Shown: in pieces, positions 1,734 to 27,713 of the stretch
How the letters are laid out: the number at the start of each line of letters is the position of its first letter
How positions within the stretch are numbered: position 1 is the first letter of the stretch
The notes under the pieces: model-generated
The model's input: only the letters and a program-made list of their open reading frames with translations
The model's database searches: none
Told to the model about the DNA's origin: nothing
Position numbers and translations under genes: made by a program
Assembly (NCBI GenBank): GCA_019247455.1
Contig: JAFAOW010000059.1
Span: forward strand, 1-33,449
Source of the DNA: Acidobacteriota bacterium
GTDB taxonomy: Bacteria > Acidobacteriota > Blastocatellia > Pyrinomonadales > Pyrinomonadaceae
DNA: 33,449 nt
Direction of reading: 5' to 3'

Positions 1734-1742
1734 TTGAAGGTT

Positions 1743-1767
1743 GCTGCCGGCGGGGCACGCAGGCAGC
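1743..1767 (-). promoter_or_regulatory. Hairpin in the asnB leader, just upstream of the start codon
   Basis: Read on the minus strand, GCTGCC and GGCAGC form a 6-bp stem. After one mismatch an inner GCG/CGC stem closes a short loop. The structure ends about 9 nt before the asnB ATG, where a ribosome binding site would lie, and no strong Shine-Dalgarno sequence is visible there. It could limit translation initiation or be incidental in GC-rich DNA. Seen directly; function is inferred. Confidence 0.35.
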
Positions 1768-1927
1768 TAAGTTAATAAACGCTGAAACGGCTCGTATTTA
1801 CAGATATTTATGCCGATTCCATCGACTTTCCGCCTACGTATCCCTGATGGGAGGTCCGAGGGTCTAACGCATTACAAAGTTTGGATTTAGGCGGGTTTTC
1901 GGCATTTATTTGCATGTGTCTTACGCC

Positions 1928-3505: not shown

Positions 3506-3545
3506 CCGATCAAATACCGCATAATATTCTCATTCCCACTCCGAG

Positions 3546-4496
3546 ATGCCGCTTTTCAGTCTAAGCTCACTGCGCCAAAGGGCCATCAAGACTTATTTGG
3601 ACCAATTCGCGCCCGATCCGGCCGAGTTGAATCCTGACTGGTCGATAAGCGCGGAGGAACTGACGAACGTGCGCATTCGCTGGCCCCAGGAATATCAGTG
3701 GGCCGAATCGACTGATTGGGTCGATATACTGAAATTCGGGTTTGAGCGACACGTGAACGTCGAGTTCGTTCGCGATATCGGACAGGAGATCAACGGCACT
3801 GTTACGTTTGAGTTCATTCGAAATGGAAAAGCCTCGCGTGTCGCGATCAATTTTTCGGACTATCTGGAAGTTGACGAACGGCTTCTCGCAGAAAGCGATC
3901 TTATCTTTAAGATGCAGTACGCTTCAGACGGTTATGGTTCGGACAAGGTAGTTCCCGGAGGATATGTTCCCGATGGCAAACGCATTTATCGATACTTGAA
4001 CGAACTCCGACGACGCAGAGACCATCGTGAATTTAGACACGATGTCTTCGGCCGCTTTGGGACTGCTTATGCTCGTGAGATCCGTGAAAAGGCGACGAAG
4101 ATCCTTTCTGAGCAGGATGAATTTGGTTTTGCGGGCGGTATGACGAAGGTCGATCACAAGACCTTTCTTAAAGAGGCGGCCGATTCACGCGTCTGCATCG
4201 ATATGCCGGGGCTGGGACCATTTTGCTTCCGTCTCGTCAATTATCTTGCGGTCGGAACGTTCGTCATCGCCTATCCGCACGCCGCACGGATGCATGTGCC
4301 TCTCATAGACCGCAAACACATTGTGTATTGCAAGGAAGACATGTCAGACTTGACCGAACTGTGCAGATATTATGTCGAGCACGATGCCGAACGTGAAGAG
4401 ATCGCCGCTAACGCTCGGGCATACTTCGATCGCTTCCTGCACAAGGACAATCTGACCAACTACTACTTGCGGTCGTGCCTCGACAAGCTGTCGTAG
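3546..4496 (+). CDS. Glycosyltransferase family 1-like, CgeB/YkvP-type C-terminal domain
   Basis: A cytoplasmic protein of 316 residues with no membrane segment. The C-terminal third looks like the CgeB-type glycosyltransferase domain (Glyco_trans_1_2). It has KVDHKTFLKEAADSRVCIDM, then PGLGPFCFRLVNYLAVGTFV, a stretch corresponding to nucleotide-sugar-binding segments of GT-B enzymes, then a helical tail (EEIAANARAYFDRFLHKDNL). The N-terminal half is less recognisable. It probably transfers a sugar to the growing repeat unit. Start ATG 3546 lies 40 bp after the beta-helix gene and has only weak ribosome-binding signal. The last 34 bp overlap tail-to-tail with the convergent GT4 gene, with no terminator between them. 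Sugar specificity cannot be read from sequence; an exostosin-like enzyme is an alternative description. Confidence 0.62.
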   Translation: MPLFSLSSLRQRAIKTYLDQFAPDPAELNPDWSISAEELTNVRIRWPQEYQWAESTDWVDILKFGFERHVNVEFVRDIGQEINGTVTFEFIRNGKASRVAINFSDYLEVDERLLAESDLIFKMQYASDGYGSDKVVPGGYVPDGKRIYRYLNELRRRRDHREFRHDVFGRFGTAYAREIREKATKILSEQDEFGFAGGMTKVDHKTFLKEAADSRVCIDMPGLGPFCFRLVNYLAVGTFVIAYPHAARMHVPLIDRKHIVYCKEDMSDLTELCRYYVEHDAEREEIAANARAYFDRFLHKDNLTNYYLRSCLDKLS

Positions 4497-5521
4497 ATGG
4501 CAAGAACTGATCGGATACTTGTCGTATCGACTGCCGGCTGAGGAGGCGTGGGCTTTCCTTCGTCTATCACCGACATGATCTTAGAAGATAGGCCCTCCGG
4601 ATCACCGATCTTGAACAAGCGGCATCCCCGGGGCCGATTCCCGGTGTCTGATGCAACAACGGGCGTGCCGAGGAACAGGCCTTCGCGAACAGATATCGCG
4701 TCACCGTCAAAGAGAGTCGTGCGTAAGATGACCTCAGCGTCCTGCATCAACCGAAGCGTTACGGCGTGCTCAACGTTCCCGGCAAGAAGGATATGTTCCA
4801 CGTTGTCCGCCTCTGCGACAGCTGCCCGAACGTCAGCAGACATTGAGCCACCGCCGACCATGATCATCCCCGCTGTCGGGTGAGCCCGTCGAACGAGAGC
4901 AAATGCTGATATCGCCGTGATCGGGTCATAATCTCGCTCCATTCCGCCGACCCACAACACTACCTCGCTATGCCGCTCAGCGAACTCGACCAATTCGTTG
5001 GGGATCACCACCTTTGGATCCGGCGTCTCAGGCGCGAAAGGTGTGATGACCTGGATACGATCGGTAGGAACGCCAAAGCGTTGATAAATATTCGCGAGTT
5101 GTTCATTGACCGCGATCAAGCGAGAAAACCCGCGAAAGACTTGTCCTTTAAGGGATCCTTCCTTGGCTCCTTCGGCGGCCCCGATCCCCGCGAATTCACC
5201 TGAATGGACGGTCAGGACCGATCTTCCTCTCGCCGAGATCGCGCAGGCTGCCGCCAGCATCATTACCCTGCGGTTCAGATGGCCACCGATATGCAGATGG
5301 AGCACGTCAAAATCAAGAGCCGTAAGTATCTTCAAGAGCCTTGCCGGTGTCCCCGGATAATAAAGATCGGGATCATCGATCGTTGCCGTGCTTCTCGACG
5401 TTGCGATGATCGAGCAGCGGTCACCGCGCTTCAAGAGTTCATTGCGGATGGCGAGAATGTTCCTGCTTATGCCGCCCTCTGGCGGCGGAATGGGCCCGAG
5501 TTGTACAACGTGAAGCCCCAT
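4463..5521 (-). CDS. Glycosyltransferase family 4 (GT-B fold)
   Basis: A retaining nucleotide-sugar-dependent transferase of 352 residues, presumed cytoplasmic or peripheral. The N-terminal subdomain opens with GPIPPPEGGISRNI, the usual GT4 glycine-rich acceptor-side loop. LHLHIGGHLNRR and LTVHSGEF follow. The C-terminal subdomain has VVLWVGGMERDYDP, MIMVGGGSMSADV and AISVREGLFLGTPVVASDTG. The usual EX7E motif appears as Asp272-X7-Glu280, so the first acidic residue is Asp. The ATG at 5519-5521 overlaps the stop of the upstream GT4 gene by one base (TAATG), indicating translational coupling. It is the last gene of the minus-strand operon and runs 34 bp into the convergent CgeB-like gene. Family assignment is strong; donor and acceptor are unknown. 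Confidence 0.85.
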   Translation of the reverse strand: MGLHVVQLGPIPPPEGGISRNILAIRNELLKRGDRCSIIATSRSTATIDDPDLYYPGTPARLLKILTALDFDVLHLHIGGHLNRRVMMLAAACAISARGRSVLTVHSGEFAGIGAAEGAKEGSLKGQVFRGFSRLIAVNEQLANIYQRFGVPTDRIQVITPFAPETPDPKVVIPNELVEFAERHSEVVLWVGGMERDYDPITAISAFALVRRAHPTAGMIMVGGGSMSADVRAAVAEADNVEHILLAGNVEHAVTLRLMQDAEVILRTTLFDGDAISVREGLFLGTPVVASDTGNRPRGCRLFKIGDPEGLSSKIMSVIDEGKPTPPQPAVDTTSIRSVLAIYDSLSRHDRK

Positions 5522-6684
5522 TACGGTAGCAGCCTGGAATAGAGCTCAATGGTTTTCGCCAACTGAGTCTCGCGTGAAAAGCGCTCAGCCACCAGGTGCC
5601 GCCCCGCGGCTCCCATTTGCTTTGCTCTGCCTTCGTCGGCGAGCAACTCGAGAAGCCTGTTTGCCATGCCGGAATGATCGTCCGATGCAACGATATAACC
5701 GTTGACCCCGTCATCAACCGCCTCGCGCGCACCTCCGACGTCGGTCACTACGACTGGTTTGCCGGCTGCCATGTACTCGAGGATCGAGTTTGAGAAGCCC
5801 TCAGCGGTCGATGTCAGCACGCAAATATCTGAAGCCGCCAGCAACTCGGGCGTGTCGTCGCAGCGGCCGATAAAGTGTACATTGGCCGCAACGCCTCGCC
5901 GGACTGCCAGGCCCTCGAGTTCAGTGCGCAAACCGCCTTCACCGGCGACGATGAAATGCGCGTCATCAGCCTGTTCCAAAACGATCTTGGCGGCTTTCAA
6001 AAGCATTGGGATGTTCTTTACTTCGTGCCGAAGGTTCGCAACCAATGTTACCCACGAACCTCCGTCTGGAATGCCGAATTTTGCCCGGACTGCATCTCGA
6101 TCGCGTTTTATCTGACCCCCCGTGTGATCGATACCGTTATAGATAAGAGCGATCTTTTCGTCGGGCACACCGCGGGATATCAGGGCCTTCCGTACAGCAT
6201 CAGAATTAGCAACGATCGCATGGGCCCTGCCGAATGCGATCCTCTCGATCACATTCTGCGCGCGCGTCCGCATCCCGGCTGTTTCACGCTTTGAAGCGAT
6301 TCGTGCGGGCACTCGCGCCAAACTTGCCGCAGCAATGCCAAACACATTCGTGTAGAAATCGTGCGTATGTACCAGATCGATCTTGTTGATGCGCAGGAAA
6401 TTTGCACACGCCCGGACCTGGCCAACAAAATTCGCATTGTAAAAGGATGTCAGTGGAAATTCGGGGATATCTCCAAGTCCTATGGAATCCACATCGCGCT
6501 TTAGGACACCGTCATTCGATAAGGTTGCGGCAAACACCTCGTAAGTACCATCTTCGTGGAGGGATCGCGTGAGCGCGGCAGCCTGACGTTCTGAGCCGCC
6601 CTGATTAAAGCTGCCGAAAAATTGTAGGACGCGCTTTCGCAATTTGAGGTCAGTCGATGGGGCGCGATGAGCGGCTTCCTTCAC
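5521..6684 (-). CDS. Glycosyltransferase family 4 (GT-B fold)
   Basis: A 387-residue GT4 enzyme expected to add a sugar to the lipid-linked repeat unit. Features are the N-terminal FFGSFNQGGSERQ loop, LVHTHDFYTNVFG, the linker region VPDEKIALIYNGID, VTLVANLRHEVKNIPML, HFIVAGEGGLRTELE and a complete EX7E motif (Glu295 and Glu303 in STAEGFSNSILEYMAAGKP). The start is not certain. The longest form begins at GTG 6684, inside the 3' end of the heparinase-like gene (35-bp overlap). A TTG at 6642 would start just past that gene's stop. GAAGGA lies at the GTG itself and no clear ribosome binding site decides the matter. The gene ends in a 1-bp overlap with the downstream GT4. Confidence 0.87.
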   Translation of the reverse strand: MKEAAHRAPSTDLKLRKRVLQFFGSFNQGGSERQAAALTRSLHEDGTYEVFAATLSNDGVLKRDVDSIGLGDIPEFPLTSFYNANFVGQVRACANFLRINKIDLVHTHDFYTNVFGIAAASLARVPARIASKRETAGMRTRAQNVIERIAFGRAHAIVANSDAVRKALISRGVPDEKIALIYNGIDHTGGQIKRDRDAVRAKFGIPDGGSWVTLVANLRHEVKNIPMLLKAAKIVLEQADDAHFIVAGEGGLRTELEGLAVRRGVAANVHFIGRCDDTPELLAASDICVLTSTAEGFSNSILEYMAAGKPVVVTDVGGAREAVDDGVNGYIVASDDHSGMANRLLELLADEGRAKQMGAAGRHLVAERFSRETQLAKTIELYSRLLP

Positions 6685-9028
6685 GGTTGATCATTAGATC
6701 TCGCCCGAGTCTGCGTATTGATGCATAAGCAACTTTGCCGGGACCGAAAACCGAGGTGTTTTGCAGCTTGAGTCTCATGCCATGAACACACACTATCTCA
6801 TCGGGCAGGGCCTCGCCCGGACTCATCCGAGCCCAAGTATACTTGAAATCAGTCGTAAAGATACCTGTATCGATGAGCTTTCCCGGCTCGTCATTAAGTG
6901 CGAAGAGATCCGTGTATCCATTGTAGTTAATGATAAACGCACGCCCTCCCGCCATCGATACTTCTTCAACCCTGGTCTCGCCGGATGCCGCCGGCAGTAG
7001 GAAGGTGAAAAATTCCTGTGTGCCGGTTCCCTCAGTGACGTATCGCATCAAAGGCGCGTTGACCTTATTGGCGTGGTTTGTTGAGATCCAGCTTTCTCGC
7101 TCCTCCCAATGCCCATCGTTATCGAAAGTAACTATCGTGTGTCCGTCGGCGATCACCTGACGGTTATCGATCCGCGTCTCAACGTTGGCGGCGAAATGAA
7201 AGTTGAGAACGAATCTGTGCCTTTCTTTCGCCTCGGCAAGGTCACGAAGAATCCAGTAGTCGCCCTTAAGGCCTAATATACTTCGATGATGTATGACCGG
7301 ATCTTCAAGCCTGCGGTAACCATTATGGTGGCCTTCGAAAAGGTCAAAGCGATCGCTTGCGACCCAATTGTTCAGAAAGGCCTCGGCTTTTGAGTGCCAA
7401 GAAAAAGGTCCGGCCGGCTCCGATGATGGCCGCCCGTCGACCTCCAGGGTGTTGTGCGCGGAGGTGGACCGAAAGTAATCGCGCAGCTCCTTGGACTCGT
7501 GATAAGTATAAGTTCCGCTGTCGACCAGCAAAGGCCTACCGTGAACGGCCGCTACGAAAGAGAGCGCGTCGGCGTGTCCATGACCCGCCGAAAGCGCCCC
7601 GAGATCGCCGCAATCGACGACGAGGCAGCTGTCTAACTCGCCCCACCCGTCCCGCATAGCAAAATAGCCGCCGTTTCGGAAACCCGTCGATGTCCCTTTC
7701 GGTTCTGAAGACTCTTTTGTTTTGAATGAATCGAGGCCTGCCGTCCCGAGCAGCCAAAACAGCTCTTCCGAAGAACGGCCCGCGAGCGCCTTATGATCAG
7801 GGCGGTCAAAGAGTATCGCGGTTACGGCCAACGAGCCGCGAAAGTCGTCCGACGCCGAGCTAGTGATAGGCAGCATCCTGCCTCCGTCATCATCGCCTAT
7901 GAGGGGTGTACTTCCGTCCGGCATCGTCAGATGCATTAGAAGATCTGACGCAGCCTCGAACCTGTCGGCGAGGTCAGGAGTGCGCGGATCGGCCGGCGCG
8001 TCGGGTATCAAAGCGCGAAGTATAGAAAAGTGGGTATAAATATCGACCGTATAGCGCTGGTACCATGTACTCTGTTCGAAATAGACACCGTCCTGATGGA
8101 CCTGTCTGGTTATCTCATCAAAAAGAATGTCCTCTCCCAACTGCTGCCATTTAGGAGATCGCTCAAAGAACGGAAATTGCGTCCCGACATAATAGAGGCC
8201 AAGAGCCTCGCCCGTCAGATGAGTGTTCGGCGAGTAATACTTAGAGAGATATCTCTCTATGTGACGGCCATGGACATGAATGAACTTGAGGGCCCGCCTA
8301 AACAGCTCGGGTGTAAAGCTGTCGGAGTTTCGGAACATGTGAAACGCCCAAACCCACGACATCGCGCGCATTGCCACCTCAAGACTGCTTGACCAGTTGA
8401 TCCCCATTCCAGGCGGATTTTGATCCATCCAGGATGAGAGTTGATCACAGAATGTTCTCGCATAACGCTCGTCACGCGTCAGAAGATATGCCGCACCCAG
8501 TATAAAAAAATGCTGATGCCGATTTATCTCCCAGACGATCTTCTTGTTGCCCGTTTCGGTCGTATCAAGCTCGTCAAATTCTTTCCAGTGTTTCAGCGGC
8601 GACCGCTTCGATGTAAGGGGCTCGCAATGCCAATCGATCTCCGTGCCCAGGTAGAGGTTCCTTAGGCCGAGGATTTCGTATCGGCCCGCGACGATGGTCT
8701 CAGCGCGAGCGATAATGTCCGCCACGCGTTTCTCACCGAATTCAGTTCTGAACCTTTGAATCGCGGCACCGGATTCGCGAAAGACCGGGAAAAATCTCTT
8801 TACACCGGAGGTATAAAACTTTTGCCAAAGGCCTTCCGCTATTACTGGGCCGTCGCCGAACTTTTCCTTGTCGATCAGAGCGATGAGGTCCTCATCGGTC
8901 GGCTCGACACCCGCCTTTTTCTGCTCTCGGTATACGGACAATGCCTGGCCTCCGCGAGTTATGACCTCGTCGAGACTGCGAAGCTTTTTAAGCTTGCTGA
9001 GGGGATTTGCCACGGCTTCGACTGCCAT
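6650..9028 (-). CDS. Heparinase II/III family protein (alginate/heparin-lyase-like)
   Basis: A 792-residue protein with the two-part architecture of heparinase II/III proteins. The N-terminal alpha/alpha toroid (about 80-430) includes WEINRHQHFFILGAAYLLT, NWSSSLEVAMRAMSW and the conserved SPNTHLTGEALGLYYVG (His270). The C-terminal beta-sheet domain (about 450-780) includes AGHGHADALSF (481-491), GRPLLVDSGTYTY and DYFRSTSAHNT (His525, Asn526). These are the signature segments of the Heparinase II/III-like domain. Family enzymes cleave uronic-acid polysaccharides by beta-elimination, while many homologues in capsule and exopolysaccharide loci are uncharacterised. No signal peptide is evident: the N-terminus MAVEAVANPLSKLKKLRS is not hydrophobic. 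Its location is therefore unclear, and a cytoplasmic protein would not meet exported polymer. It lies 11 bp after the deacetylase-like gene, in the same operon. Start ATG 9028. Confidence 0.88.
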   Translation of the reverse strand: MAVEAVANPLSKLKKLRSLDEVITRGGQALSVYREQKKAGVEPTDEDLIALIDKEKFGDGPVIAEGLWQKFYTSGVKRFFPVFRESGAAIQRFRTEFGEKRVADIIARAETIVAGRYEILGLRNLYLGTEIDWHCEPLTSKRSPLKHWKEFDELDTTETGNKKIVWEINRHQHFFILGAAYLLTRDERYARTFCDQLSSWMDQNPPGMGINWSSSLEVAMRAMSWVWAFHMFRNSDSFTPELFRRALKFIHVHGRHIERYLSKYYSPNTHLTGEALGLYYVGTQFPFFERSPKWQQLGEDILFDEITRQVHQDGVYFEQSTWYQRYTVDIYTHFSILRALIPDAPADPRTPDLADRFEAASDLLMHLTMPDGSTPLIGDDDGGRMLPITSSASDDFRGSLAVTAILFDRPDHKALAGRSSEELFWLLGTAGLDSFKTKESSEPKGTSTGFRNGGYFAMRDGWGELDSCLVVDCGDLGALSAGHGHADALSFVAAVHGRPLLVDSGTYTYHESKELRDYFRSTSAHNTLEVDGRPSSEPAGPFSWHSKAEAFLNNWVASDRFDLFEGHHNGYRRLEDPVIHHRSILGLKGDYWILRDLAEAKERHRFVLNFHFAANVETRIDNRQVIADGHTIVTFDNDGHWEERESWISTNHANKVNAPLMRYVTEGTGTQEFFTFLLPAASGETRVEEVSMAGGRAFIINYNGYTDLFALNDEPGKLIDTGIFTTDFKYTWARMSPGEALPDEIVCVHGMRLKLQNTSVFGPGKVAYASIRRLGRDLMINREGSRSSRPID

Positions 9029-9039
9029 TATTTTAGCAA

Positions 9040-10188
9040 TTAAGTATCCATGATCGGCGTTAGCAGATGGTTTCGGTAAATGTTAGGGTTCCCTTTCCTG
9101 CCCTCCATCGCAGCCGACGCGATATTGAACGCCTCCCTGGCGCTCGCAAAGTGCACCGAATAATCGCCTGATCTCTGTCCTCTTTCAACAATTTCGGCAA
9201 AGTAACGCTTTGCATCCTCACCGATGCATGTGCTCTGGTCTTGGTCGAAGAAACCGTGACAGTACAGCTTCACGAATATCCAATCGGGCCGGTGTGCGAC
9301 CGTCACATTCGCGGATCTCCACCGTCGAAAGCGTGCCTCCGACAATCCCTGACTAGCTGTCAGTGCTCCATCGTCGATCCGAGGCACCGGAATGCCTTTG
9401 ATCGTTCTGGTCCAGTTAAAAACCAGTGGACCCGTAAATATAAGTGGCAATTGAGGCTGCTTTCCATTTGTGCCGGTTCTAACCCCTCGCCGATGAGGCG
9501 CCGCCTCGTCCATCGGTAGCGCACATTCGTAGATCTGATTTGTGACGGCCACCTGAGACTGGTCCGGTGCGGACGGAAGCGTCATGTCGGCGTAGCAGCC
9601 TGTCTCGCGAAGGATCTCCATTTCGTTATCGACGCCGCAGAAACGCCCTCCGCACGAGTTAGCCAGAGCCAGGTTCCCGTGTACGAACGCGTATCGGGGA
9701 ATGGGGTCTTTCTCCATGCGTGAAAGGCACCTGTGCCTTTCTGCGATCGTATCTCGAAATCCGAGCAGCGCATTTCGAAGGCCATCTGCCGTATCGGGCC
9801 TATCCACACCGTGATGAAGATGGATCTCAACTTCGCCAAGGCCCTCCGACTGCATTTCGGCGAGGATCTCGAGGATCCCCGCGTCATACTGTTCGGCGGG
9901 ATAAAAATTGGTATGTCGGAACTTCGTTCCGTCAACGTCTCGAGCAGCGTCGCCGGTGTCTCTTGCCAATTTGTGATATTCCTTGAGACGCCGGATCTGT
10001 GTTTTCCGGTCGAGGTCGCCGCTCGGACTCCACGCGGGCTCAAAATGGTTTGCGACAGTGATGATGATGTGTTTATGCTCAAACGCCGTACGCTCGAGAA
10101 AAGCTCCGGCGCGATTGAACGGATACCGCACCAGCCAAGGCAGATTCCATTGAAGCTTCGTGAGGAATGAAGAGTCGACTTTGGTCAT
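9040..10188 (-). CDS. Putative NodB-like carbohydrate deacetylase-fold protein
   Basis: About 382 residues. The start is taken at ATG 10186-10188 (MTKVDSSFLTK) because it overlaps the flippase stop in an ATGA arrangement, a typical coupled start. A longer frame reaching 10293 reads back into the flippase gene and looks non-native. The N-terminal core KHIIITVANHFEPAWSP (39-55) and a later VEIHLHHGVDRPDTADGL resemble the strand-plus-metal-ligand segments of polysaccharide deacetylase barrels. YAFVHGNLALANS and the C-terminal WIFVKLYCHGFFDQ are also barrel-like. The family is common in bacterial exopolysaccharide clusters but is poorly characterised. A canonical NodB motif 1 (TFDDG) is absent, so deacetylase activity is not assured. 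Operon position between flippase and heparinase-like protein suggests polymer or lipid-linked sugar modification. Confidence 0.55.
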   Translation of the reverse strand: MTKVDSSFLTKLQWNLPWLVRYPFNRAGAFLERTAFEHKHIIITVANHFEPAWSPSGDLDRKTQIRRLKEYHKLARDTGDAARDVDGTKFRHTNFYPAEQYDAGILEILAEMQSEGLGEVEIHLHHGVDRPDTADGLRNALLGFRDTIAERHRCLSRMEKDPIPRYAFVHGNLALANSCGGRFCGVDNEMEILRETGCYADMTLPSAPDQSQVAVTNQIYECALPMDEAAPHRRGVRTGTNGKQPQLPLIFTGPLVFNWTRTIKGIPVPRIDDGALTASQGLSEARFRRWRSANVTVAHRPDWIFVKLYCHGFFDQDQSTCIGEDAKRYFAEIVERGQRSGDYSVHFASAREAFNIASAAMEGRKGNPNIYRNHLLTPIMDT

Positions 10189-11786
10189 GACCGGTTTGGA
10201 ACCTCCGGCAAGAACGGGACGCGGCCTGGCCATAAACGCCTGAGGACATCCGTAACGGCTCGTTTCTCGCCCGCGTCGATCAGCCCGAGACAATTTGCCG
10301 CAAATAGATATATGGTCAGGAAAACCATTCCCGAGACTGCCAAAACGGAGCAGCCGCCAATAAAACTAAGCGTGCTCGCCTTAGTGATCATCAGTTCTGA
10401 CTCCGCGAACCGCTCCCCAAGAGCTATTAGGCCAACCCTGATACTCGAGTAAACGAAAAAGGTAACTACGCCGGCCGCAAGACTCGCGACCGCAGTTTTC
10501 GCCACACCCCCGAGCAGTCGAAGATGTCCAAAGCCTAGTTTCAATTTGCTAACGACCATCGCCTGCGCAACCAGCCGCTCAACGACCAGGGCTGAAACTG
10601 CGATAGCGATCATTCCCATCATTCCAAAATAAGGAAGTCCAAAGTACAGGACCGCAACCAGCGCGATCAAGATGAAGACCCTTGCGATCAGAAAAAGCCT
10701 GCCCATCTCTTTGTATGAGCGAATGACCGGGTCGTTGACGAGTATTCCTAACGGAAGCAGCGTGATGTTCACGAGGAATATAGGGACGCTTGCCTCAAAT
10801 TTTTCCGTGAAAAGAGTGGTTATGAAAGTACTTGCCGTAATGAGCAAAAATACGTAGACGGGAAAATAAAAGAATGCAAGTTTTTGGGTCGCTCGGGCTG
10901 TAAGACGGATCATCTCTTCCGTGTCGCCCGCCATATGCAGTGCATTCATTCGCGGGATAAGTACGGAAGTCACAGACTCCGTCAGCATTGCCATGAGGGG
11001 TATTTCAAAGCACCCGTATGCGTATATCGCAAAGTCAGCTGAAGAGAATTTATAGCCAACGAAATAGTTATGTATATCAGTCTGGGCGATCAACAAAACA
11101 CCTGCCAGGCCGTAGGGCAGAGCATAAGCGAGCTGCTCCCCAAAGAATCTTAGATCAAAGCTTCTCCAGACCCAGGGGAAGCGTGAGCGAACGTATATCA
11201 GCAGGATGAATGTCTGGATGATCCCCTGGATCATCGCGGCGTATATGAAGGCTTCGACCGAGCCGAAGGCGAAAACGGCACCCGCCATCAGCAGCGTTTT
11301 GCTCAATTGAGAGACCACGATGAACAGCGTGGCGAGACGGACCTCTCGATTGGCGACAGCGACCGTATCGATGAAGGTTGAAACCATCCATATCCAGATG
11401 ACGAAGCCGATCTTGGGAGCAAGCCGGGTCAGTTCATCGCTATGAAAAATGTTTCCCAAAAATTGCGGGTAGACATTGAAGAAAAGACATGCCCCCCCGC
11501 CAATAACGAAATTGAAGATCAGGATATTCAGTATCGCGGAAGCACGGCGCTCTTCCTCCCTCGCAAGGTAGTAATAGGAACTCATCCCAACCCCGAGGGA
11601 TAAGATAACTACTGCGTTCGCGATCACCTGAAAGGATTCGCGGTAATGGCCGACAGACTCCTGGGTGAGATATCTGACGATAATGAGCGGCAGCATAAAG
11701 CTCAGCGCAAAGCCAACGATCTTGGCTGCTAGAAGCCAGGCGCTTTGCGTTCTGAGACTCTGAGTTTTATTTCCTGCTTGTACCAC
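10185..11786 (-). CDS. Wzx-type lipid-linked oligosaccharide flippase (polysaccharide biosynthesis protein)
   Basis: A 533-residue polytopic inner-membrane protein of the MOP/PST superfamily. About 12-14 hydrophobic segments are visible, including LLAAKIVGFALSFMLPLIIV, ILIFNFVIGGGACLFF, IFLVNITLLPLGILV and VFILIALVAVLYFG. The early segment RTQSAWLLAAKIVGFALSF is the typical start of Wzx/PST flippases. It would move undecaprenyl-linked repeat units from the cytoplasmic to the periplasmic face. It starts at a GTG (11784-11786) with AAGG about 4 nt upstream. It lies 45 bp after the methyltransferase and overlaps the deacetylase-like gene by 4 bp. MurJ is an alternative in this superfamily, but the glycosyltransferase neighbourhood favours Wzx. 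The matching Wzy polymerase is probably the gene at 23932, more than 12 kb away. Confidence 0.85.
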   Translation of the reverse strand: MVQAGNKTQSLRTQSAWLLAAKIVGFALSFMLPLIIVRYLTQESVGHYRESFQVIANAVVILSLGVGMSSYYYLAREEERRASAILNILIFNFVIGGGACLFFNVYPQFLGNIFHSDELTRLAPKIGFVIWIWMVSTFIDTVAVANREVRLATLFIVVSQLSKTLLMAGAVFAFGSVEAFIYAAMIQGIIQTFILLIYVRSRFPWVWRSFDLRFFGEQLAYALPYGLAGVLLIAQTDIHNYFVGYKFSSADFAIYAYGCFEIPLMAMLTESVTSVLIPRMNALHMAGDTEEMIRLTARATQKLAFFYFPVYVFLLITASTFITTLFTEKFEASVPIFLVNITLLPLGILVNDPVIRSYKEMGRLFLIARVFILIALVAVLYFGLPYFGMMGMIAIAVSALVVERLVAQAMVVSKLKLGFGHLRLLGGVAKTAVASLAAGVVTFFVYSSIRVGLIALGERFAESELMITKASTLSFIGGCSVLAVSGMVFLTIYLFAANCLGLIDAGEKRAVTDVLRRLWPGRVPFLPEVPNRS

Positions 11787-20098: not shown

Positions 20099-21910
20099 AT
20101 GACGGCAGACAATCTCATCGGCTTTGACGCCATTCCGCAGACAATACCGCACTTTTGCTTTGAGGCGTTTACCCGGCATCAGAAGAACGATGCTCTCGGC
20201 GTAAAAGTCGATGGTACGTGGCAGCACATAAGCGGTAGCGATGCCGTGAAGCAGGTCAAAGAGATCGCGGCAGGCTTGTTATCGCTGGGCGTTAACCCGG
20301 GCGATCGACTAGCTATCATCTCTGAGAATCGCCCTGAATGGTCTCTTGTGGATCTTGCAGTGCTTAGCATTCGCGCCGTTTTGGTTCCGATCTATACCAC
20401 GCAGGCCGTCGAGCAGATAAGGTTTATCCTTGAAAATTCCGGCGCCAGGATGCTTTTCATCTCGGGGAAAAAGCTCTGGCGTCATGCGGAGGAAGCGATC
20501 CGCAGCGTTGAGCAGCTCGAGAAACTGATATTTTTTGACGCTGACGGAGCGCCTTCGGATGGATCCCATGCTATATCGCTGAGCCAGATCGAAAGCTCCG
20601 GCACCGACCTTGCGACAGTAGATGAGTCACTATCAAAGATCGATCCTGGTGATCTCGCGACGATCATTTACACATCCGGGACGACCGGCGAGCCAAAGGG
20701 GGTAATGCTCACCCATCAAAATTTCGTATCGAACATAATATCGATCTCAAAAGGCCTTCCGATTCGATTCACTGACCGAAGTCTCTCCGTGCTGCCGCTA
20801 TCGCATATCTTTGAGCGTACGGTCTTTTTCGTGCTGTGCAGCAATGGGGTATCGGTAAATTATTGCGGCTCGTTCGATCAACTGGCCTCGCAGCTCCTCG
20901 AAGCGAAACCGACCATTATGACCGCCGTTCCGCGCCTTTTCGAACAGGTCTATCACAAGATAGTAAAAAAGGGCCGCTCTGCCGGCGGATGGAAGACCAG
21001 GCTTTTCGACTGGTCGCTCGAGGTTGGTCAGGAATACTGGGACGCGAAGGAAAAACGTCAACCGGTTTCTGCCGTGCTTGCTGCTAAACATGCTTTGGCG
21101 AACAGACTCGTCTTTTCGAAATGGCGTGACGGGGTTGGGGGATGTATCAGGTTCTTCGTATCAGGCGGCGCTCCGCTCTCGCGTAAACTTAGCTACGCCT
21201 ATTGGGCCGCCGGCATCCCCATCCTTCAGGGATATGGGATGACCGAGGCACCGATCGATTGTGCGAACCGGCCGGACGACAATAAGGTCGCGTCGATCGG
21301 CAGGCCCTTTGACGGCATCGAGATGAAGATCGGCGATCAGGACGAGGTACTGATCCGCGGGGGAAACGTCATGCAGGGCTATTACAATAATCCCGAAGCT
21401 ACCGCGGCCGTTCTCGACGCGGAAGGTTACTATCACACGGGGGACGTCGGCTATGTCGACCATGACGGTCATTTTTACATCACCGATCGTCTAAAGGACC
21501 TGTTCAAGCTTTCCAACGGAAAATACGTCGCGCCGCTTCAGGTGGAAAGCCTGTTGAAACAAAGCCCGCTGATCTCACAAGCGGTGGTCGTAGGCTCGGG
21601 GCGAAAGCAGGTCGGCGCTCTCGTCGTTCCCGACTGGGAAGCTCTAAAAGATGCCGCGAAGCGAAACGGTGGTTTTTCAGAAGCTTCGCGAGACGAGCTT
21701 TGTTCGGATCCGATCATCGTCAAGCTGATCCAAAACGATGCCGTCGATCTAACACGTGAGTTGAGTGATTATGAGCGCGTTAAGCGCGTCTACCTTCTGC
21801 CGCGTGAATTCTCGATCGACAAAGGCGAAATGACGCCCACGCTTAAGATCAAGAGAAGCGTCATCGATGAAAAGTACCGTGATGAGATCGACGAGATCTG
21901 CGGCGGTTAG
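20099..21910 (+). CDS. Long-chain fatty acid-CoA ligase (AMP-dependent synthetase)
   Basis: A 603-residue ANL-superfamily adenylating enzyme that activates fatty acids to acyl-CoA through an acyl-adenylate. It has the P-loop motif A3 TIIYTSGTTGEPKGVML (about 188-204), then TAVPRLFEQVYHKI, which is typical of the FAA1/long-chain group. Motif A5 follows in GYGMTEAPIDCANRP. GYYHTGDVGYVDHDGHFYITDRLKDLFKLSNGKYV covers A7, A8 and the hinge in separate conserved blocks. Length is as expected. One variation is APIDCANRP after the YGMTE motif, where many relatives have S/T-P-V residues. That may affect acyl-chain specificity, but this is speculation. ATG 20099 follows the MaoC gene by 34 bp. The stop overlaps the convergent zinc-finger gene by 4 bp. 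Confidence 0.92.
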   Translation: MTADNLIGFDAIPQTIPHFCFEAFTRHQKNDALGVKVDGTWQHISGSDAVKQVKEIAAGLLSLGVNPGDRLAIISENRPEWSLVDLAVLSIRAVLVPIYTTQAVEQIRFILENSGARMLFISGKKLWRHAEEAIRSVEQLEKLIFFDADGAPSDGSHAISLSQIESSGTDLATVDESLSKIDPGDLATIIYTSGTTGEPKGVMLTHQNFVSNIISISKGLPIRFTDRSLSVLPLSHIFERTVFFVLCSNGVSVNYCGSFDQLASQLLEAKPTIMTAVPRLFEQVYHKIVKKGRSAGGWKTRLFDWSLEVGQEYWDAKEKRQPVSAVLAAKHALANRLVFSKWRDGVGGCIRFFVSGGAPLSRKLSYAYWAAGIPILQGYGMTEAPIDCANRPDDNKVASIGRPFDGIEMKIGDQDEVLIRGGNVMQGYYNNPEATAAVLDAEGYYHTGDVGYVDHDGHFYITDRLKDLFKLSNGKYVAPLQVESLLKQSPLISQAVVVGSGRKQVGALVVPDWEALKDAAKRNGGFSEASRDELCSDPIIVKLIQNDAVDLTRELSDYERVKRVYLLPREFSIDKGEMTPTLKIKRSVIDEKYRDEIDEICGG

Positions 21911-22236
21911 GCCGGGTCGGCCAGCATCTTACCCTTTTGTTGCAAAAGGCTGTTCAAGGAATCTGAATCCGTGTGGCGCTTTTTGAGCAAAGCCTCGGCC
22001 AATTCAAATAAAGGAGCCGGGATCATTGACGGCTCACTGACCTCGGCATCCATCTCGTCTTCACCAAAGCAGGAATAGAACTCAGTCTCGGCAGAACAAA
22101 ATTCACACGCCGACAAATGGCGGAGGATACGCCGCTCCTCCGCCGCTGAGAAAGTGCCGTTCTGATATTCCATCAGCTCGTAGGAAGACGGGCAACTCTC
22201 ATTTTTTGAGAAGTCGTTCGTTGTTGAAGAGAACAT
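21907..22236 (-). CDS. Small zf-HC2-type zinc-finger protein (anti-sigma-factor-like, no membrane segment)
   Basis: A 109-residue protein with the N-terminal anti-sigma zinc-finger pattern. Cys15 is followed by a helix-turn segment, and then His40, Cys44 and Cys47 occur in RRILRHLSACEFCSAE. This matches the HX3CX2C core of zinc-binding anti-sigma domains. The C-terminal half is acidic and then helical (APLFELAEALLKKRH). There is no transmembrane helix, so it would act in the cytoplasm. Proteins of this type bind ECF-type sigma factors or act as small regulatory adaptors. It is divergently placed across a 515-bp intergenic region from the sigma-like gene at 22752, which makes a functional pair plausible but unproven. 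Its stop overlaps the acyl-CoA synthetase stop by 4 bp. Start ATG 22236. Confidence 0.68.
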   Translation of the reverse strand: MFSSTTNDFSKNESCPSSYELMEYQNGTFSAAEERRILRHLSACEFCSAETEFYSCFGEDEMDAEVSEPSMIPAPLFELAEALLKKRHTDSDSLNSLLQQKGKMLADPA

Positions 22237-22341
22237 AATCGCGCTGCACGCACTTGGGGCGCGTCAATAGCTTTTGACTAGCTAACATCCTGCGTTTGCT
22301 ACACCAAAAATAAATCTGTAATGCATAATTGGTTCCAAAAC

Positions 22342-22462
22342 TTTACACAAGTAAAATCAAGATACCGCCGTAAAACCACAAATTTGAAACACTCAGTGTG
22401 CATCAGACCATTTGTTTTCAAGGGTTTACGTACACTGTATAAACAGTATACATTTGTGTAAA
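22342..22462. repeat. Spaced 9-bp inverted repeat pair with additional TTTAC/GTAAA half-sites
   Basis: TTTACACAA at 22342-22350 has its exact reverse complement TTGTGTAAA at 22454-22462. The first copy also forms a local dyad TTTAC-N4-GTAAA (22342-22355). Further half-sites are GTAAA at 22370-22374 and TTTAC at 22425-22429. The copies bracket the best promoter candidate, an arrangement suited to a regulator that binds two operators and loops DNA. The sequence is AT-rich, so some recurrence by chance is expected. Confidence 0.4.
22425..22452 (+). promoter_or_regulatory. Candidate promoter overlapped by a palindromic operator
   Basis: TTTACG (22425-22430) and TATACA (22447-22452), separated by 16 bp, form a sigma-70-like promoter pointing at the sigma-like gene. 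The -10 region lies inside a perfect dyad TGTATA-N5-TATACA (22436-22452), a position suited to a repressor site. A second, weaker pair is TTGCTC (22469-22474) and TACTAT (22493-22498) with 18-bp spacing, which would start transcription near 22505. All from pattern matching by eye. Confidence 0.4.
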
Positions 22463-22504
22463 AACTTGTTGCTCAAAGGTGCCGGAACTTGCTACTATTT
22501 AAAT

Positions 22505-22630
22505 GTGGACGGCGAGGCGATAACCTCTCTTCCACGTGATCAGATCGGCCGCGACGCTCAGCTGCCGGATCTTACCAAGCTCGTCTACCAATCAAAACTC
22601 GATCGCAGCCGGAGTTCGATCGCATCCTAG
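22505..22630 (+). CDS. Possible 41-residue small ORF in the leader
   Basis: A GTG-initiated frame of 41 codons with unusually protein-like composition (MDGEAITSLPRDQIGRD, then LPDLTKLVYQSKLDRSR). It begins 6 nt after the TACTAT hexamer at 22493-22498, so it would be leaderless, and there is no ribosome binding site. It could be a leader peptide, the remnant of a gene, or a chance frame. It matches nothing that I recognise. Confidence 0.2.
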   Translation: MDGEAITSLPRDQIGRDAQLPDLTKLVYQSKLDRSRSSIAS

Positions 22631-22751: not shown

Positions 22752-23903
22752 ATGAACGAAGTCAAAACCAAAGAAAAACTCCCGCGCTCTATCCAGAATA
22801 AGCAGGTCAAGGTTGGCAAATGGAACGACAGTCTAAAGACCTCCGACGTTAACCAGATCTGGACCGAGCTTCATCGCATCGTTTCCTCCCACCCTTTAGT
22901 TAGAGCATCAAAGCGGGCCGGATTCCTCGTTGAGGAAGGGAAATATAACGCCTATACGGATCTGACGCAGGAGCTTTTCGTTGCACTTCTATCGAAGGAC
23001 CGCTTCCAGCATTACATCGACACCGGGATGTCCGATCCCGAGATCGAGGCGGAGATCAGCCAGATCGAGCTGACGAATATGCTTACCGCCGAGCTGCGGA
23101 AGCGCTATCCCGAGTCGTATCGCCTTGCAAGGCGTGTATCGACGCTCATCCAATCGAGCAGCGCCTTCAAACGTTTTGACAATATCGGTAATCCCGACGC
23201 CCATAGGCGTCTGGCCGACCGGCTGTACGGGCTCAAAGAGTGGAAGGACAACAAGGTCCGACGCGACGTGCAGGAAATGGACGAACGCGTCAAGGTTGTC
23301 GCATTCTACGGCCGCGACACACGGATGGTCGGTTGCACAGGCGATGCACAGATCGTGATCAGTAATCCCGAGCTTGAAAAACTGATCATTAGGGTCTTCA
23401 AGGCGATCGATTCGCCGGTCGACGTGCGAAGCCTGCGTTCATTCGTGATGTCCCGGCTCCCGATCATGGATATTCACCTTGTTCCTGTCGGCAGCGGAAC
23501 GGACAGCGACGATGATGACAGGATGCCATTCGAGTTCACCGACACCCGTGAGACGCCTGAAGAAGACCTTCTTCGCAATGAAGCTGAGGTTGCGGCGGCG
23601 GGCTTCGTCGACAACTTCCTCGTAACGCTGAATCGGTCCGTGCGCGGCAAAGCCAAGCAGTACGACCGGATGATCAACGTCCTGTGGCATTGCTACCTCA
23701 TTTCGGACAGCGGTACGCAGCTTGAAGTTGCGGAAATGCTGGGCGTTTCGGACTCTCTAGTATCTGACTATCGTAAGCGGATCGAGGCCAATCTTCAGCA
23801 GCTCTCCTTCAACGGTGTCAACGAGGCCCGGCAGTTCGAAAAGGCCCTGAAACGAAAGGTCCGCGACATGATCACCATGGAGAAGGAAGGAGTTGCGGCC
23901 TGA
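22752..23903 (+). CDS. Divergent sigma-70-factor-like DNA-binding regulator
   Basis: A 383-residue cytoplasmic protein. The ATG 22752 is chosen because GGAAGA lies about 6-8 nt upstream. The frame stays open further upstream, but the extra 72 residues look non-coding. The N-terminal part includes YTDLTQELFVALLSKDRFQH, which resembles sigma region 2 (DLxQExFxxLL). It runs into basic helices (ELRKRYPESYRLARRVSTLI). A middle portion has charged and Asp-rich stretches (GTDSDDDDRMPFEFTD). The C-terminus has a clear helix-turn-helix TQLEVAEMLGVSDSLVSDYR (322-341), like sigma region 4 or a LuxR-type HTH. Length exceeds typical ECF factors (about 180-200) because of the central insert. It precedes the Wzy gene by 28 bp, so it probably regulates its own polysaccharide operon. 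The exact family is not recognised. Confidence 0.55.
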   Translation: MNEVKTKEKLPRSIQNKQVKVGKWNDSLKTSDVNQIWTELHRIVSSHPLVRASKRAGFLVEEGKYNAYTDLTQELFVALLSKDRFQHYIDTGMSDPEIEAEISQIELTNMLTAELRKRYPESYRLARRVSTLIQSSSAFKRFDNIGNPDAHRRLADRLYGLKEWKDNKVRRDVQEMDERVKVVAFYGRDTRMVGCTGDAQIVISNPELEKLIIRVFKAIDSPVDVRSLRSFVMSRLPIMDIHLVPVGSGTDSDDDDRMPFEFTDTRETPEEDLLRNEAEVAAAGFVDNFLVTLNRSVRGKAKQYDRMINVLWHCYLISDSGTQLEVAEMLGVSDSLVSDYRKRIEANLQQLSFNGVNEARQFEKALKRKVRDMITMEKEGVAA

Positions 23904-23931: not shown

Positions 23932-25527
23932 ATGCCCATCGGGAACGAAAAGCGACGAGACCATCGATCGGTCAACCCTTTTTCCGCGAAGGGCCCGCGG
24001 GCCTCGCGCGACTTTGCGTCGGTAAAAGCTCCCGGCAAATCCGCCCCCAGCGAAGAACCAAAGAATCTCGTAAACGTAAGTTATACGAAAGCTGCGGACC
24101 CCGAGCCATCGGCTGAAACGCGCGTGGTCGAGCCATCGCCCACCCCGTCTTTCAAAAAGGCGCCGCTTTACGACAAGCCCAAATCAGCCTCGGCCGAGCT
24201 CAAGGAGAAGAAGAGGGCCAAACAGACGGAAGCTGATCACGAGATCCTCAAAAAGGACCGCTGGCTCGCGCGCAACGGGCACTTCCTGACCTTCGTCGGT
24301 CTGTATCTTTTCTCGATAATGGTCCTTTTCCGGCCATACGAGTTGATATCGTTCTTGGGTTTCCTGTCCGCGACTGCCTTCTATTTTGCTTTGGCGACGC
24401 TCATCATTTACGTCCCTAGCCAGCTCGCGACGGAAGCAAACCTGACCGTTCTCTCAACAGATGTGAAGGCGATCCTTGCTATGACGCTGATCGCGCTAGT
24501 TACGATCCCGATCGCAAAGGACCCCGCCCTCGCGTGGGAAACATTCAATGAGCCCTTCATAAAGGCGGTCATCATCTTTATTGTCCTCGTAAATGTCGTC
24601 CGCACGCGAAAGCGCCTCATGGCAATGCTTTGGCTCAGTCTCAGCATTGGCGTCTACCTTGGGTACACGGCACTCGATCTTTACATGCAGGGTAAGTTCA
24701 AGGTGGAAGATTACCGCGTCGGTGTCGACGTCGGAGGGATGTTCGGCAATCCCAACGACATGGCACTCCACTTCGTTATGATGACGCCGATCGTAGTCGC
24801 TCTTGGCATCGCGGCAAAGAGTAAATTCTGGCGGGTCATCTACTGGGCGATAGCGGCGCTCTTCGTCGGAGCGAACATGGTCACGTACTCACGTGCGGGC
24901 TTCCTCGGTCTTATCGCGACCGCGGCCGTTCTTGCTTGGAAGCTTGGCCGCAAATATCGCCTTAACGTCAGTATTGCCAGCATCGTCGTCGGAGGCGTCG
25001 CGATCGCCGCGGCACCTGGAAATTACGGTCTGCGAATGCTGTCGATCTTTATCCCCGGCCTCGATGCGGTTGGTTCGGCCGATCAGCGGCAGGAGCTTCT
25101 TAACCGCTCGCTCCTCGTAACGGCGAGGAATCCTTGGGGCATCGGCATTGGCTGCTTCCCTATCGTCGGTATCCATGATCACCAGACGCACAACGCGTTC
25201 ACCCAGGTGTCGAGTGAATTAGGCGTCCTGGGACTCGCTGCGTATCTCATCTTCATGATCAGCCCGTTTCGCAAGCTGCGTGCGATCGAACGCACCCTGT
25301 TCGACGCGGAGAATCACAGCTGGTTCTACTACATGTCGATCGGCCTGCAGGCAAGCATCGTCGGGTATTGGGTCTCGAGCTTCTTCGCATCGGTCGCGTA
25401 TAACTGGTTCATTTATTACCTGATCGCCTACGCGGTCGCGTTCCGCCGGATCTACCGCCTTGAAACAGGAGAACAATCAGCTCAAGCGCCTCGAGTTCCG
25501 AAACCCGAGCCCGCCCTTGCCATATGA
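23932..25527 (+). CDS. O-antigen ligase/Wzy family polymerase with long cytoplasmic N-terminus
   Basis: A 531-residue inner-membrane protein with about ten or more membrane helices starting near residue 116 (HFLTFVGLYLFSIMVLF). The Wzy_C domain is visible as VTYSRAGFLGLIATAAVLAW (about 317-336). The conserved periplasmic loop is NPWGIGIGCFPIVG followed by HDHQTHNAFTQVSSELGVLG (415-434), with the expected His and Glu. This family polymerises or ligates lipid-linked repeat units in the periplasm. The first 113 residues are hydrophilic, rich in Lys, Pro and Ser, and end in a charged helix (SAELKEKKRAKQTEADHEIL). This is unusual for the family, though a wrong start cannot be excluded because no strong ribosome binding site precedes ATG 23932. 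It overlaps the next gene by 4 bp (ATGA). It is the likely partner of the flippase at 10185. Confidence 0.85.
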   Translation: MPIGNEKRRDHRSVNPFSAKGPRASRDFASVKAPGKSAPSEEPKNLVNVSYTKAADPEPSAETRVVEPSPTPSFKKAPLYDKPKSASAELKEKKRAKQTEADHEILKKDRWLARNGHFLTFVGLYLFSIMVLFRPYELISFLGFLSATAFYFALATLIIYVPSQLATEANLTVLSTDVKAILAMTLIALVTIPIAKDPALAWETFNEPFIKAVIIFIVLVNVVRTRKRLMAMLWLSLSIGVYLGYTALDLYMQGKFKVEDYRVGVDVGGMFGNPNDMALHFVMMTPIVVALGIAAKSKFWRVIYWAIAALFVGANMVTYSRAGFLGLIATAAVLAWKLGRKYRLNVSIASIVVGGVAIAAAPGNYGLRMLSIFIPGLDAVGSADQRQELLNRSLLVTARNPWGIGIGCFPIVGIHDHQTHNAFTQVSSELGVLGLAAYLIFMISPFRKLRAIERTLFDAENHSWFYYMSIGLQASIVGYWVSSFFASVAYNWFIYYLIAYAVAFRRIYRLETGEQSAQAPRVPKPEPALAI

Positions 25528-26681
25528 TCGGTACAGCGGAAGAAACAGCCTTTTGGATATGCCTGGTCCTGTTGGGCTATGTCTATGTCGGCTATCCGCT
25601 GATCGTTTTTGTGGTAAGCCTGCTCTTTCCAAAACCGATCCGCAAGGGTGACATCGAGCCAACGGTGACGATCCTCATCACTGCTTATAACGAAGAACTC
25701 GCCATTCGCTCAAAGCTCGAGAATACTCTTGCGATCGAATATCCTTCCGCAAAGCTCGAGATCCTCGTCGCATCCGACGGCTCTAACGACGGCACCGAGG
25801 CGATAGTCCAGGAATTCGCACCCCGGGGCATAAAGCTCTTCCGTCAGGAGGGCCGCGTCGGCAAGACCGTGACGCAGAATAACGCGGTCAAAGAGGCATC
25901 CGGCGAAATAATTCTCTTTTCAGATGCCACGACACATTATGATCGCGACGTCTTCAAATGGATCCTCCCGGCTTTCGCGGACGAAACGGTGGGATGTGTC
26001 GCCGGCCGCCTCGTTTATGTCGACGACGACAGCACGACCGTCGGCCGGGGAGCCCAGAGCTACTGGAGCTATGAGACGTTCCTGAAGCTCGCAGAAAGCC
26101 AGGCGTGTTCGCTGATCGGCGCGTCAGGTTGCCTTTATGCCGTGCGTCGCGAAGCTTACCGGCCGATGTACCCCGAGGCGTGCTCGGATTTCCTCATCTG
26201 CACGATGATCTACCGCCAGGGCATGCGAAGCGTTTTCGCACCCGACGCCGTCTGCTTCGAACACACAAATCGAAGCGCGTCTGACGAGCTTAAAATGCGC
26301 GTCCGCGTCATTTCCCAGACGTTCACCGACCTCTGGCGGAACCGCGACATGCTGAATCCGCTAAAGGCGGGCTTCTTCGCGATCGAACTAGTCTCGCACA
26401 AGCTCCTGAGATACGTCGTCCCGGTGATACTGTTTGCCTTGCTCGTGTCGACGATCTTCCTCGCACGCAACTCGATCTTTTTCACCACCATGGCCGCGGG
26501 GCAAAGCCTCTTTTATCTTTCGGCTTTTGCTGGCTTCCTTATGGAACGCTCGGGAAAGCGCCTAAGCTTGCTGGCGATGCCCCTCTATTTCGTGCTTGCG
26601 AATTTCGCATCGCTTCTCGGTTTTTACAAATTCATCCGCGGCGAACGCTACGCCGCCTGGGAGCCCATTCGCTCGAAGTAA
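25524..26681 (+). CDS. Membrane-associated glycosyltransferase family 2
   Basis: A 385-residue GT-A fold transferase anchored by one N-terminal helix (FWICLVLLGYVYVGYPLIVF, 10-29). A group of three C-terminal hydrophobic segments lies at about 300-375. The catalytic domain has TVTILITAYNEE (48-59), EILVASDGSNDGTE, the aspartate-containing IILFSDATTHYDRD (129-142), GASGCLYAVRREAYRP and YRQGMRSVFAPDAVCFE. The topology resembles processive or polyprenyl-linked GT2 enzymes such as those related to hyaluronan and poly-GlcNAc synthases. It is shorter, and a canonical QXXRW motif is not obvious (RQGMRSV is at the expected place). It starts with an ATGA overlap on the Wzy gene, so it is translationally coupled. 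Substrate is unknown. Confidence 0.85.
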   Translation: MIGTAEETAFWICLVLLGYVYVGYPLIVFVVSLLFPKPIRKGDIEPTVTILITAYNEELAIRSKLENTLAIEYPSAKLEILVASDGSNDGTEAIVQEFAPRGIKLFRQEGRVGKTVTQNNAVKEASGEIILFSDATTHYDRDVFKWILPAFADETVGCVAGRLVYVDDDSTTVGRGAQSYWSYETFLKLAESQACSLIGASGCLYAVRREAYRPMYPEACSDFLICTMIYRQGMRSVFAPDAVCFEHTNRSASDELKMRVRVISQTFTDLWRNRDMLNPLKAGFFAIELVSHKLLRYVVPVILFALLVSTIFLARNSIFFTTMAAGQSLFYLSAFAGFLMERSGKRLSLLAMPLYFVLANFASLLGFYKFIRGERYAAWEPIRSK

Positions 26682-26687
26682 CCAGTG

Positions 26688-27713
26688 ATGAACGACACGA
26701 TTCAAAACCTGGAGAACGTGAACGTGCGTATCGGCCGTAACGTGCTGACGGGCACACCAAGGGTATCGATCGTCATCCCGGCATACAACTCTGCGGAGTT
26801 TATTGCGGAGACGCTCGACTCGGTACTCGCGCAGAAATTTCGCGAGTACGAGATCATAGTCGTGAATGACGGCTCGCCCGATACCGAGAAATTCGAGCGG
26901 GAGATCCGTACTCGTCTCGAAGAGATAATTTATATAAAGCAACGGAATGCCGGCGCCGGGCCGGCCCGCAACCTGGCGATTCGGCACGCACGCGCCGAAC
27001 TCATCGCGTTTCTCGATGCGGACGACATTTGGCTGCCCGAATACCTCGCGAAGCAGTACGTCTATCTAAATCGCAACGAGTTAGACATGGTCTATTGCGA
27101 CGCTACTCTCTTTGGCGACCGTTCAGCCTATCGCCGCACGTTCATGGAGACCGCCCCGTCGGACGGAGTGGCGGATTTTGACGCGATCCTCGACCTGAGA
27201 TGCAACGTCATCACCTCGGGCACCGTCGCCCGCCGGGACCAGCTGATGGAGGCGGGCCTTTTCGAGTCTGAGCGCGTCCGCGCACACGACTTTCACCTTT
27301 GGCTGCGAATGGCGAAGTTGGGCGCGAAGATCGGCTATCAGAGGAATGTGCTCTTAAAGTACCGCGTTCATCCGGCGAGCCTTTCCGGGGACGCGATCAG
27401 CCGTCTCGAACGCGAGATAAGCGCATTTCAGCGCGTGGCCCGCACGATAGACCTTTCCAAAGCCCAGCAAGAACGCGTCGCAAAGCTCATCACGCGTCTC
27501 GAAGCCGATCTGGCCGTCGAGCAGGGTAAGACCCACCTTCTACGCGGCGAATACCCCGAGGCCGTCGTCGCCTTTCGCGTCGCGAACCGCTACCGCCGCT
27601 CTGTAAAGCTCGCGGCCGTCGTCCTCGCCGCACGCTTCGCCCCCGCCTCGCTCGTCAGGTATTTTCGGAAATACCGCTTCGAAGATCTGGCGCTGGTGAG
27701 GCACACGTTCTGA
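26688..27713 (+). CDS. Glycosyltransferase family 2
   Basis: A soluble GT-A transferase of 341 residues. ATG 26688 is used; GTG 26685 is in frame immediately before it. The N-terminal nucleotide-binding strand is TPRVSIVIPAYNSAEFI (about 23-39), then YEIIVVNDGSPDTEKF and QRNAGAGPARNLAIRHA. The metal-binding DXD motif is FLDADDIWLPEYL (Asp110/Asp112). A later HDFHLWLRMAKLGAKIGY is the usual acceptor-side ED-like region. The C-terminal helical tail is rich in Arg and Ala, with SVKLAAVVLAARFAPASLV possibly peripheral to the membrane. The gene follows the membrane GT2 by 6 bp and ends the operon; a stem-loop terminator lies about 105 bp downstream. Confidence 0.88.
   Translation: MNDTIQNLENVNVRIGRNVLTGTPRVSIVIPAYNSAEFIAETLDSVLAQKFREYEIIVVNDGSPDTEKFEREIRTRLEEIIYIKQRNAGAGPARNLAIRHARAELIAFLDADDIWLPEYLAKQYVYLNRNELDMVYCDATLFGDRSAYRRTFMETAPSDGVADFDAILDLRCNVITSGTVARRDQLMEAGLFESERVRAHDFHLWLRMAKLGAKIGYQRNVLLKYRVHPASLSGDAISRLEREISAFQRVARTIDLSKAQQERVAKLITRLEADLAVEQGKTHLLRGEYPEAVVAFRVANRYRRSVKLAAVVLAARFAPASLVRYFRKYRFEDLALVRHTF

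Follow-up and report, generated by a model that had tools for sequence, protein, structure and literature searches.

A gene in the window, by which we mean the whole 33,449-nucleotide stretch of DNA that was analysed, most likely encodes a sigma70-type factor of a new, lineage-restricted variety, controlled by a soluble zinc anti-sigma factor. In the full form of this reading, the gene, here called SIG (sigma70-like gene), specifies an alternative, lineage-restricted sigma70-like factor arranged as sigma2, insert, acidic linker, sigma4 and C-terminal helix and held by the zinc anti-sigma factor, an arrangement that appears reasonably probable to us. The features on which this reading draws are collected in Table 1.

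The open reading frame itself, which an earlier note had described as encoding 383 residues, is confirmed by comparison with relatives: its ATG at 22752 is strongly conserved in their alignment. A longer in-frame version with a GTG at 22536 as the SIG start was rejected, as conservation begins at the ATG and the GTG part is unconserved. SIG is single-copy and occurs in 35 of the 37 genomes of the genus at 76–100% protein identity, an occurrence that therefore goes beyond chance. A search with a 14-member profile recovered it from 121 of 162 Blastocatellia genomes, which belong to Pyrinomonadaceae (f1), where SIG is near-universal, and to two other families of Blastocatellia (f2 and f6). Pyrinomonadaceae are a soil- and sludge-dwelling family, mostly known through metagenomes. 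Among 396 genomes spread over the phylum, 33 were SIG-positive, all of them Blastocatellia, and no homologue was found outside that group. SIG is a real conserved gene and forms a lineage-restricted family. No Pfam or NCBIfam model exceeds its curated cut-off on SIG, a PDB sequence search with the protein gave no match, and one with the SIG profile gave only Cro (E 0.19); together with the restricted distribution, this bears out the suggestion that the family is uncharacterised.

Table 1 Features of SIG, its surroundings and related loci. Positions refer to the window unless a locus or contig is named.
Feature	Position	Strand	Basis or remark
SIG, sigma70-like gene, 383 aa	22752..23903	+	ORF, homologues, sigma similarity
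Sigma region 2-like domain, residues 24-135	22821..23156	+	hhalign, AF2 helices, sigmaE region 2 match
Family-specific conserved insert, residues 136-240	23157..23471	+	invariants, AF2 model
Acidic linker, conserved PE(E/D), residues 240-270	23469..23561	+	hhalign to group 1/3 profiles, composition
Sigma region 4-like helix-turn-helix, residues 269-349	23556..23798	+	hhalign, SigE models, four helices in AF2
C-terminal helix, residues 356-382	23817..23897	+	AF2
P1, probable sigmaA-type extended -10 promoter of SIG	22460..22512	+	footprint
P2, bipartite promoter-like element TTTTGGAA-N9-CATTaCaGATTTAtTTT	22307..22343	-	~70 bp before the zinc-finger gene
Soluble zinc-finger protein, 109 aa, candidate class I anti-sigma, divergent	21907..22236	-	locus survey, profile, zf-HC2
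Wzy/O-antigen-ligase-like protein	23932..25527	+	Wzy_C E=1.9e-9; closest model TIGR03097, below cut-off
Family 2 glycosyltransferase	25524..26681	+	overlaps wzy by 4 bp
Second family 2 glycosyltransferase	26685..27713	+	clusters with the first
Second surface-polysaccharide cluster	3-11786	-	
Exosortase genes of the window's genome (G000)	C297:186-998; C50:2-436		on other contigs
Ser/Thr kinase near SIG	L074 5022-7457 and similar loci; L034 9085-10902	-; -	
Sigma2-like modules, family f2	L245 2968-3249; L246 3003-3350; L247 2936-3244; L248 2965-3291	+; -; +; -	

The resemblance of SIG to sigma70 factors is made up of lines that are each weak and that agree with one another. The sigma-70 family model TIGR02937 matches the SIG of the window at 19.1 bits, with a curated cut-off of 42.9, along residues 69–350, a stretch that takes in both conserved sigma regions in order and spans the insert; the same model matches 11 of 14 homologues below cut-off, at best with 7e-5. 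When SIG was aligned by hhalign to an ECF profile built from its own genome, region 4 (score 36.6, P 3e-4) and region 2, in its 2.1/2.2 part (score 31.1, P 0.002), both exceeded the best of 200 column-shuffled controls (28.1), and the two matches are collinear, 2 then 4. Across profile comparisons, region 2.1/2.2 scored 29.9–31.1. Residues 213–337 show a weak alignment to group 1/3 sigma profiles from the phylum, over the section that covers regions 3.1, 3.2 and 4 (score 30.8–31.3; best of 150 shuffles 25.3); P was 0.13 with an initial, heavily gapped profile and 0.002 once this had been rebuilt on reference columns. SigE models match residues 293–349, within region 4. AF2 predicted the full-length protein with modest confidence (pLDDT 69, pTM 0.37), and the first 19 Foldseek matches of that model are sigma factors or sigma–RNAP entries, none under E 0.001. 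A second structure aligner also placed sigma factors in its top rows, including sigmaE and SigW, and paired sigmaE region 2 (5or5) with model residues 17–125 at Z 6.9, where matches of Z under 8 may reflect a common arrangement and such E-values and Z-scores are unconvincing alone. The earlier proposal of a sigma-like protein thus keeps its substance, with sigma factors leading both structure searches and with profile matches for sigma2 and sigma4 above shuffles; nothing passes a curated cut-off. The below-cut-off TIGR02937 matches in 11 of 14 homologues, the sigma-led structure matches, the region 2 and region 4 profile matches and the anti-sigma-like partner described below point weakly but consistently to SIG being sigma70-like.

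All sigma scores lie under curated cut-offs, the C-terminal part resembles HTH_23, HTH_3, Cro and LysR-type DNA-binding domains, the region 4 match by itself could be any helix-turn-helix, and a sensory role is conceivable for the conserved insert; these points would suit a classical activator or repressor, sigma-descended or sigma-resembling, whose C-terminal helix-turn-helix binds DNA, whose N-terminus does not bind RNA polymerase and whose insert senses a ligand. We consider this rather unlikely, however, as few parts of the protein are as well conserved as the DLTQE of region 2.2, a generic helix-turn-helix leaves the region 2 and linker matches unexplained, and the constant partner of SIG is an anti-sigma-like gene.

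The sigma70-like reading is also reflected in the domain layout. The region-2-like N-terminus that the earlier note had recognised by DLTQELFVALL stood up: the motif lies at residues 70–80, and conservation across 58 homologues is complete or almost so at D70, L71, Q73, E74 and L75. Its core, DLTQEL (residues 70–75), presumably corresponds to the region 2.2 position that contacts the clamp helices of RNA polymerase in known sigma factors, and is a putative clamp-helix contact in SIG. The typical aromatic melting residues of region 2.3 are not obvious. Family f2 also contains small ORFs of 93–115 aa that match only region 2.1/2.2 of the SIG family (TQELFLHLLATDRF...; profile E 1e-9 to 2e-12) and stop before region 2.3/2.4, as stand-alone sigma2-like modules.

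What had been described as an atypical central insert with an Asp run separates into two elements, a conserved insert (~136–240) and a distinct acidic linker, and a run of at least four Asp is present in only 10 of the 58 homologues. The insert carries the motifs YGLxxW, RxxR, G, Q, N, DSP and RxxR, with G160, L161, W164, R188, R191, G194, Q200, N205, R226 and R229 invariant across the same homologues. The AF2 model of residues 118–268, the insert and its flanks (pLDDT 75, pTM 0.68), consists of helices and short strands; a search of solved structures with the insert model returned no convincing match, and yeast Vps74 was rejected as its fold (Z 5.2 over 82 residues, too weak). Pfam Sigma70_r3 did not match SIG, sigma3 was absent among the fold matches of the insert model, and the model gives the additional domain that follows region 2 an alpha/beta fold, unlike the three-helix sigma3. 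In some f2 paralogues (L037, L039-L040), the insert domain itself contains a long, charged extra segment with AT-hook-like motifs of the GRP type (RRGRPSKKAK), and the AT_hook model matched two SIG-family members weakly. In the linker it is acidity that is conserved instead of the Asp run (a mean of 10.6 D/E versus 3.1 K/R per ~38 residues in the 58 homologues), and in the hhalign comparison with group 1/3 profiles the Asp-rich stretch aligns with region 3.2, making the linker a candidate sigma finger. The C-terminal helix-turn-helix noted earlier is likewise predicted here.

The most constant neighbour of SIG is a divergent gene, unmentioned in the earlier note, for a small zinc-finger protein; it was found in all 77 Pyrinomonadaceae loci with enough upstream sequence. 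The gene recurs beside SIG in one f6 genome (G156), ~60 bp away (E 3e-15); in the f2 loci and the remaining f6 loci that were examined it does not adjoin SIG. Cys15, His40, Cys44 and Cys47 are invariant, and His40-x3-Cys44-x2-Cys47 forms the Hx3Cx2C pattern, the zinc signature of class I anti-sigma factors (PMC7406223). No transmembrane stretch is evident from the protein sequence. The zf-HC2 model gives the protein 18.4 bits, under the Pfam cut-off of 22.2, and reaches E below 1 in only 1 of 12 members. A profile made solely from SIG neighbours also matches (E 6.8e-6) a zf-HC2 protein of the window's genome (zf-HC2 E 1.3e-10) whose gene comes immediately after a true ECF gene. Judged by these sequence features, the zinc-finger protein is most likely a soluble class I-type anti-sigma factor of SIG.

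Two conserved blocks, P1 and P2, occupy the region between the two genes. P1 reads TTGCTC-17/18-TAnTAT with TG before it and is probably a housekeeping extended -10 promoter of SIG; a simple consensus promoter scan found nothing above chance in the region and did not call P1. P2 is present in 38 of 39 aligned sequences with fixed spacing. Its GGAA block resembles ECF -35 elements, and P2 is the strongest candidate as a target promoter of SIG. In close relatives, the P2 model finds one strong site per genome, at the SIG locus, and a regulon search with it returned nothing else convincing in those genomes; no regulon therefore follows from P2.

An inherited gene order could also account for such a pair, with P2 a housekeeping promoter and the zinc finger serving another system: the AMP-ligase gene beyond the zinc-finger gene is likewise order-conserved in many loci, and P2 permits a loose 4/6 sigmaA -35 reading (TTGGAA). 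This is unlikely, given that the pairing persists at ~30% zinc-finger identity amid changing flanking genes, with a further occurrence in family f6, and that P2, with its invariable spacing, is far more constrained than its surroundings. Under the preferred sigma/anti-sigma reading, SIG would probably be expressed from P1, along with any surface-polysaccharide genes that lie downstream; the divergent zinc-finger protein would most likely bind and silence it; and SIG, once released by zinc loss, by oxidation or by some other signal, would associate with core RNA polymerase and drive P2 before the anti-sigma gene, giving negative feedback.

Downstream, wzy begins 28 bp after SIG, at the ATG at 23932, as had been noted; its product scores 90 bits with TIGR03097 (exosortase A-associated ligase; cut-off 188), and family 2 glycosyltransferase (GT2) genes follow. 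In other families, SIG neighbours include genes for a DUF3473 polysaccharide deacetylase, FemAB-like proteins, an AAA_22 ATPase and GT2 enzymes, which we take to be typical of exosortase loci. Tested genus genomes without an exosortase match have no close wzy orthologue. SIG is often co-located with exosortase-type polysaccharide genes and is not dependent on them; the gene arrangement suggests that it is probably co-transcribed with them where they are present. A sharpened form of the earlier note's view, in which SIG would be a sigma factor devoted to exopolysaccharide operons of the exosortase-linked kind, is improbable, and dedication to exopolysaccharide finds no support: wzy with GT2 genes follows SIG in 52 of the 78 loci with enough sequence, exosortase-type neighbours occur in other families and exosortase is common in the SIG-bearing families (a family-level co-occurrence confounded by ancestry), but 26 loci lack a downstream wzy, six genomes without any wzy match (G009, G035, G028, G119, G036, G090) keep SIG, and no strong P2-like site lies within 10 kb before polysaccharide genes. 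As a neighbour of SIG, wzy is less constant than the zinc-finger gene.

Several further observations concern these neighbourhoods. The exosortase genes of the window's genome lie on other contigs, and the window holds a second surface-polysaccharide cluster with asparagine synthase-like, two GT4, heparinase II/III-like and flippase genes. A Ser/Thr kinase gene, with TPR in Pyrinomonadaceae, recurs convergent to SIG in many wzy-less loci; kinase genes recur near SIG in f2 too, and kinases are common in these genomes generally. Some ECF factors are activated by kinases (PMC13147305).

Current models overlook SIG, although nearly every member of Pyrinomonadaceae carries it, in a single copy. The SIG/zinc-finger pair and its unique promoter element make up a compact, directly testable sigma/anti-sigma system. 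In ECF factors, which lack sigma3, a variable linker joins sigma2 to sigma4 and runs through the RNAP cleft as region 3.2 does (PMC6411747); a conserved domain in such a cleft-passing linker, if true, would probe the limits of what the initiation machinery can accommodate and could point to a new form of initiation gating. It is possible, and we propose it tentatively, that SIG represents a separate sigma70-like class, neither ECF nor group 3, whose insert senses a signal or alters promoter opening and which, under dual control by insert and zinc anti-sigma factor, would serve as a core Pyrinomonadaceae regulator. In the ECF review that was searched, we found no account of a domain lying between sigma2 and sigma4, and one may still be described elsewhere; our literature search found no paper joining exosortase, PEP-CTERM and Acidobacteria, and none on such a sigma factor in Pyrinomonas.

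Among known systems, control of PEP-CTERM genes by RpoN and PrsK-PrsR (PMC9850573) resembles the SIG locus in linking regulation to exosortase/PEP-CTERM polysaccharide loci, but relies on sigma54 and a two-component system, proteins unrelated to SIG. Group 3 factors (SigE, SigB/F/G, FliA type) are nearer to SIG in length, the alignment of residues 213–337 covers their region 3.1-3.2-4, and SigE models touch region 4; SIG differs in lacking a Sigma70_r3 match and in the fold predicted for its extra domain. The non-canonical ECFs ECF41, ECF42, ECF56 and CorE/ECF238 likewise add a conserved domain to the sigma2–sigma4 core, but the additions reviewed are N- or C-terminal (PMC8999054), whereas that of SIG lies between sigma2 and sigma4 and is accompanied by a separate anti-sigma-like gene. 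Closest in overall organisation are ECF factors with soluble zinc class I anti-sigma factors (SigR-RsrA, RpoE-ChrR type), which share with SIG the sigma2/sigma4-like ends, the acidic linker, an adjacent soluble Hx3Cx2C protein and a conserved promoter element containing GGAA. Against these, SIG departs from the ECF layout, with 383 aa rather than ~200 and a conserved domain of ~100 aa between sigma2 and sigma4; its partner is divergent rather than within the sigma operon, and it scores far below ECF models. Since this conserved domain places SIG outside the ECF class and the sigma3 of group 3 is likewise undetected, SIG appears, from its sequence and models, to belong neither to the standard ECF factors nor to group 3, set apart by its domain layout.
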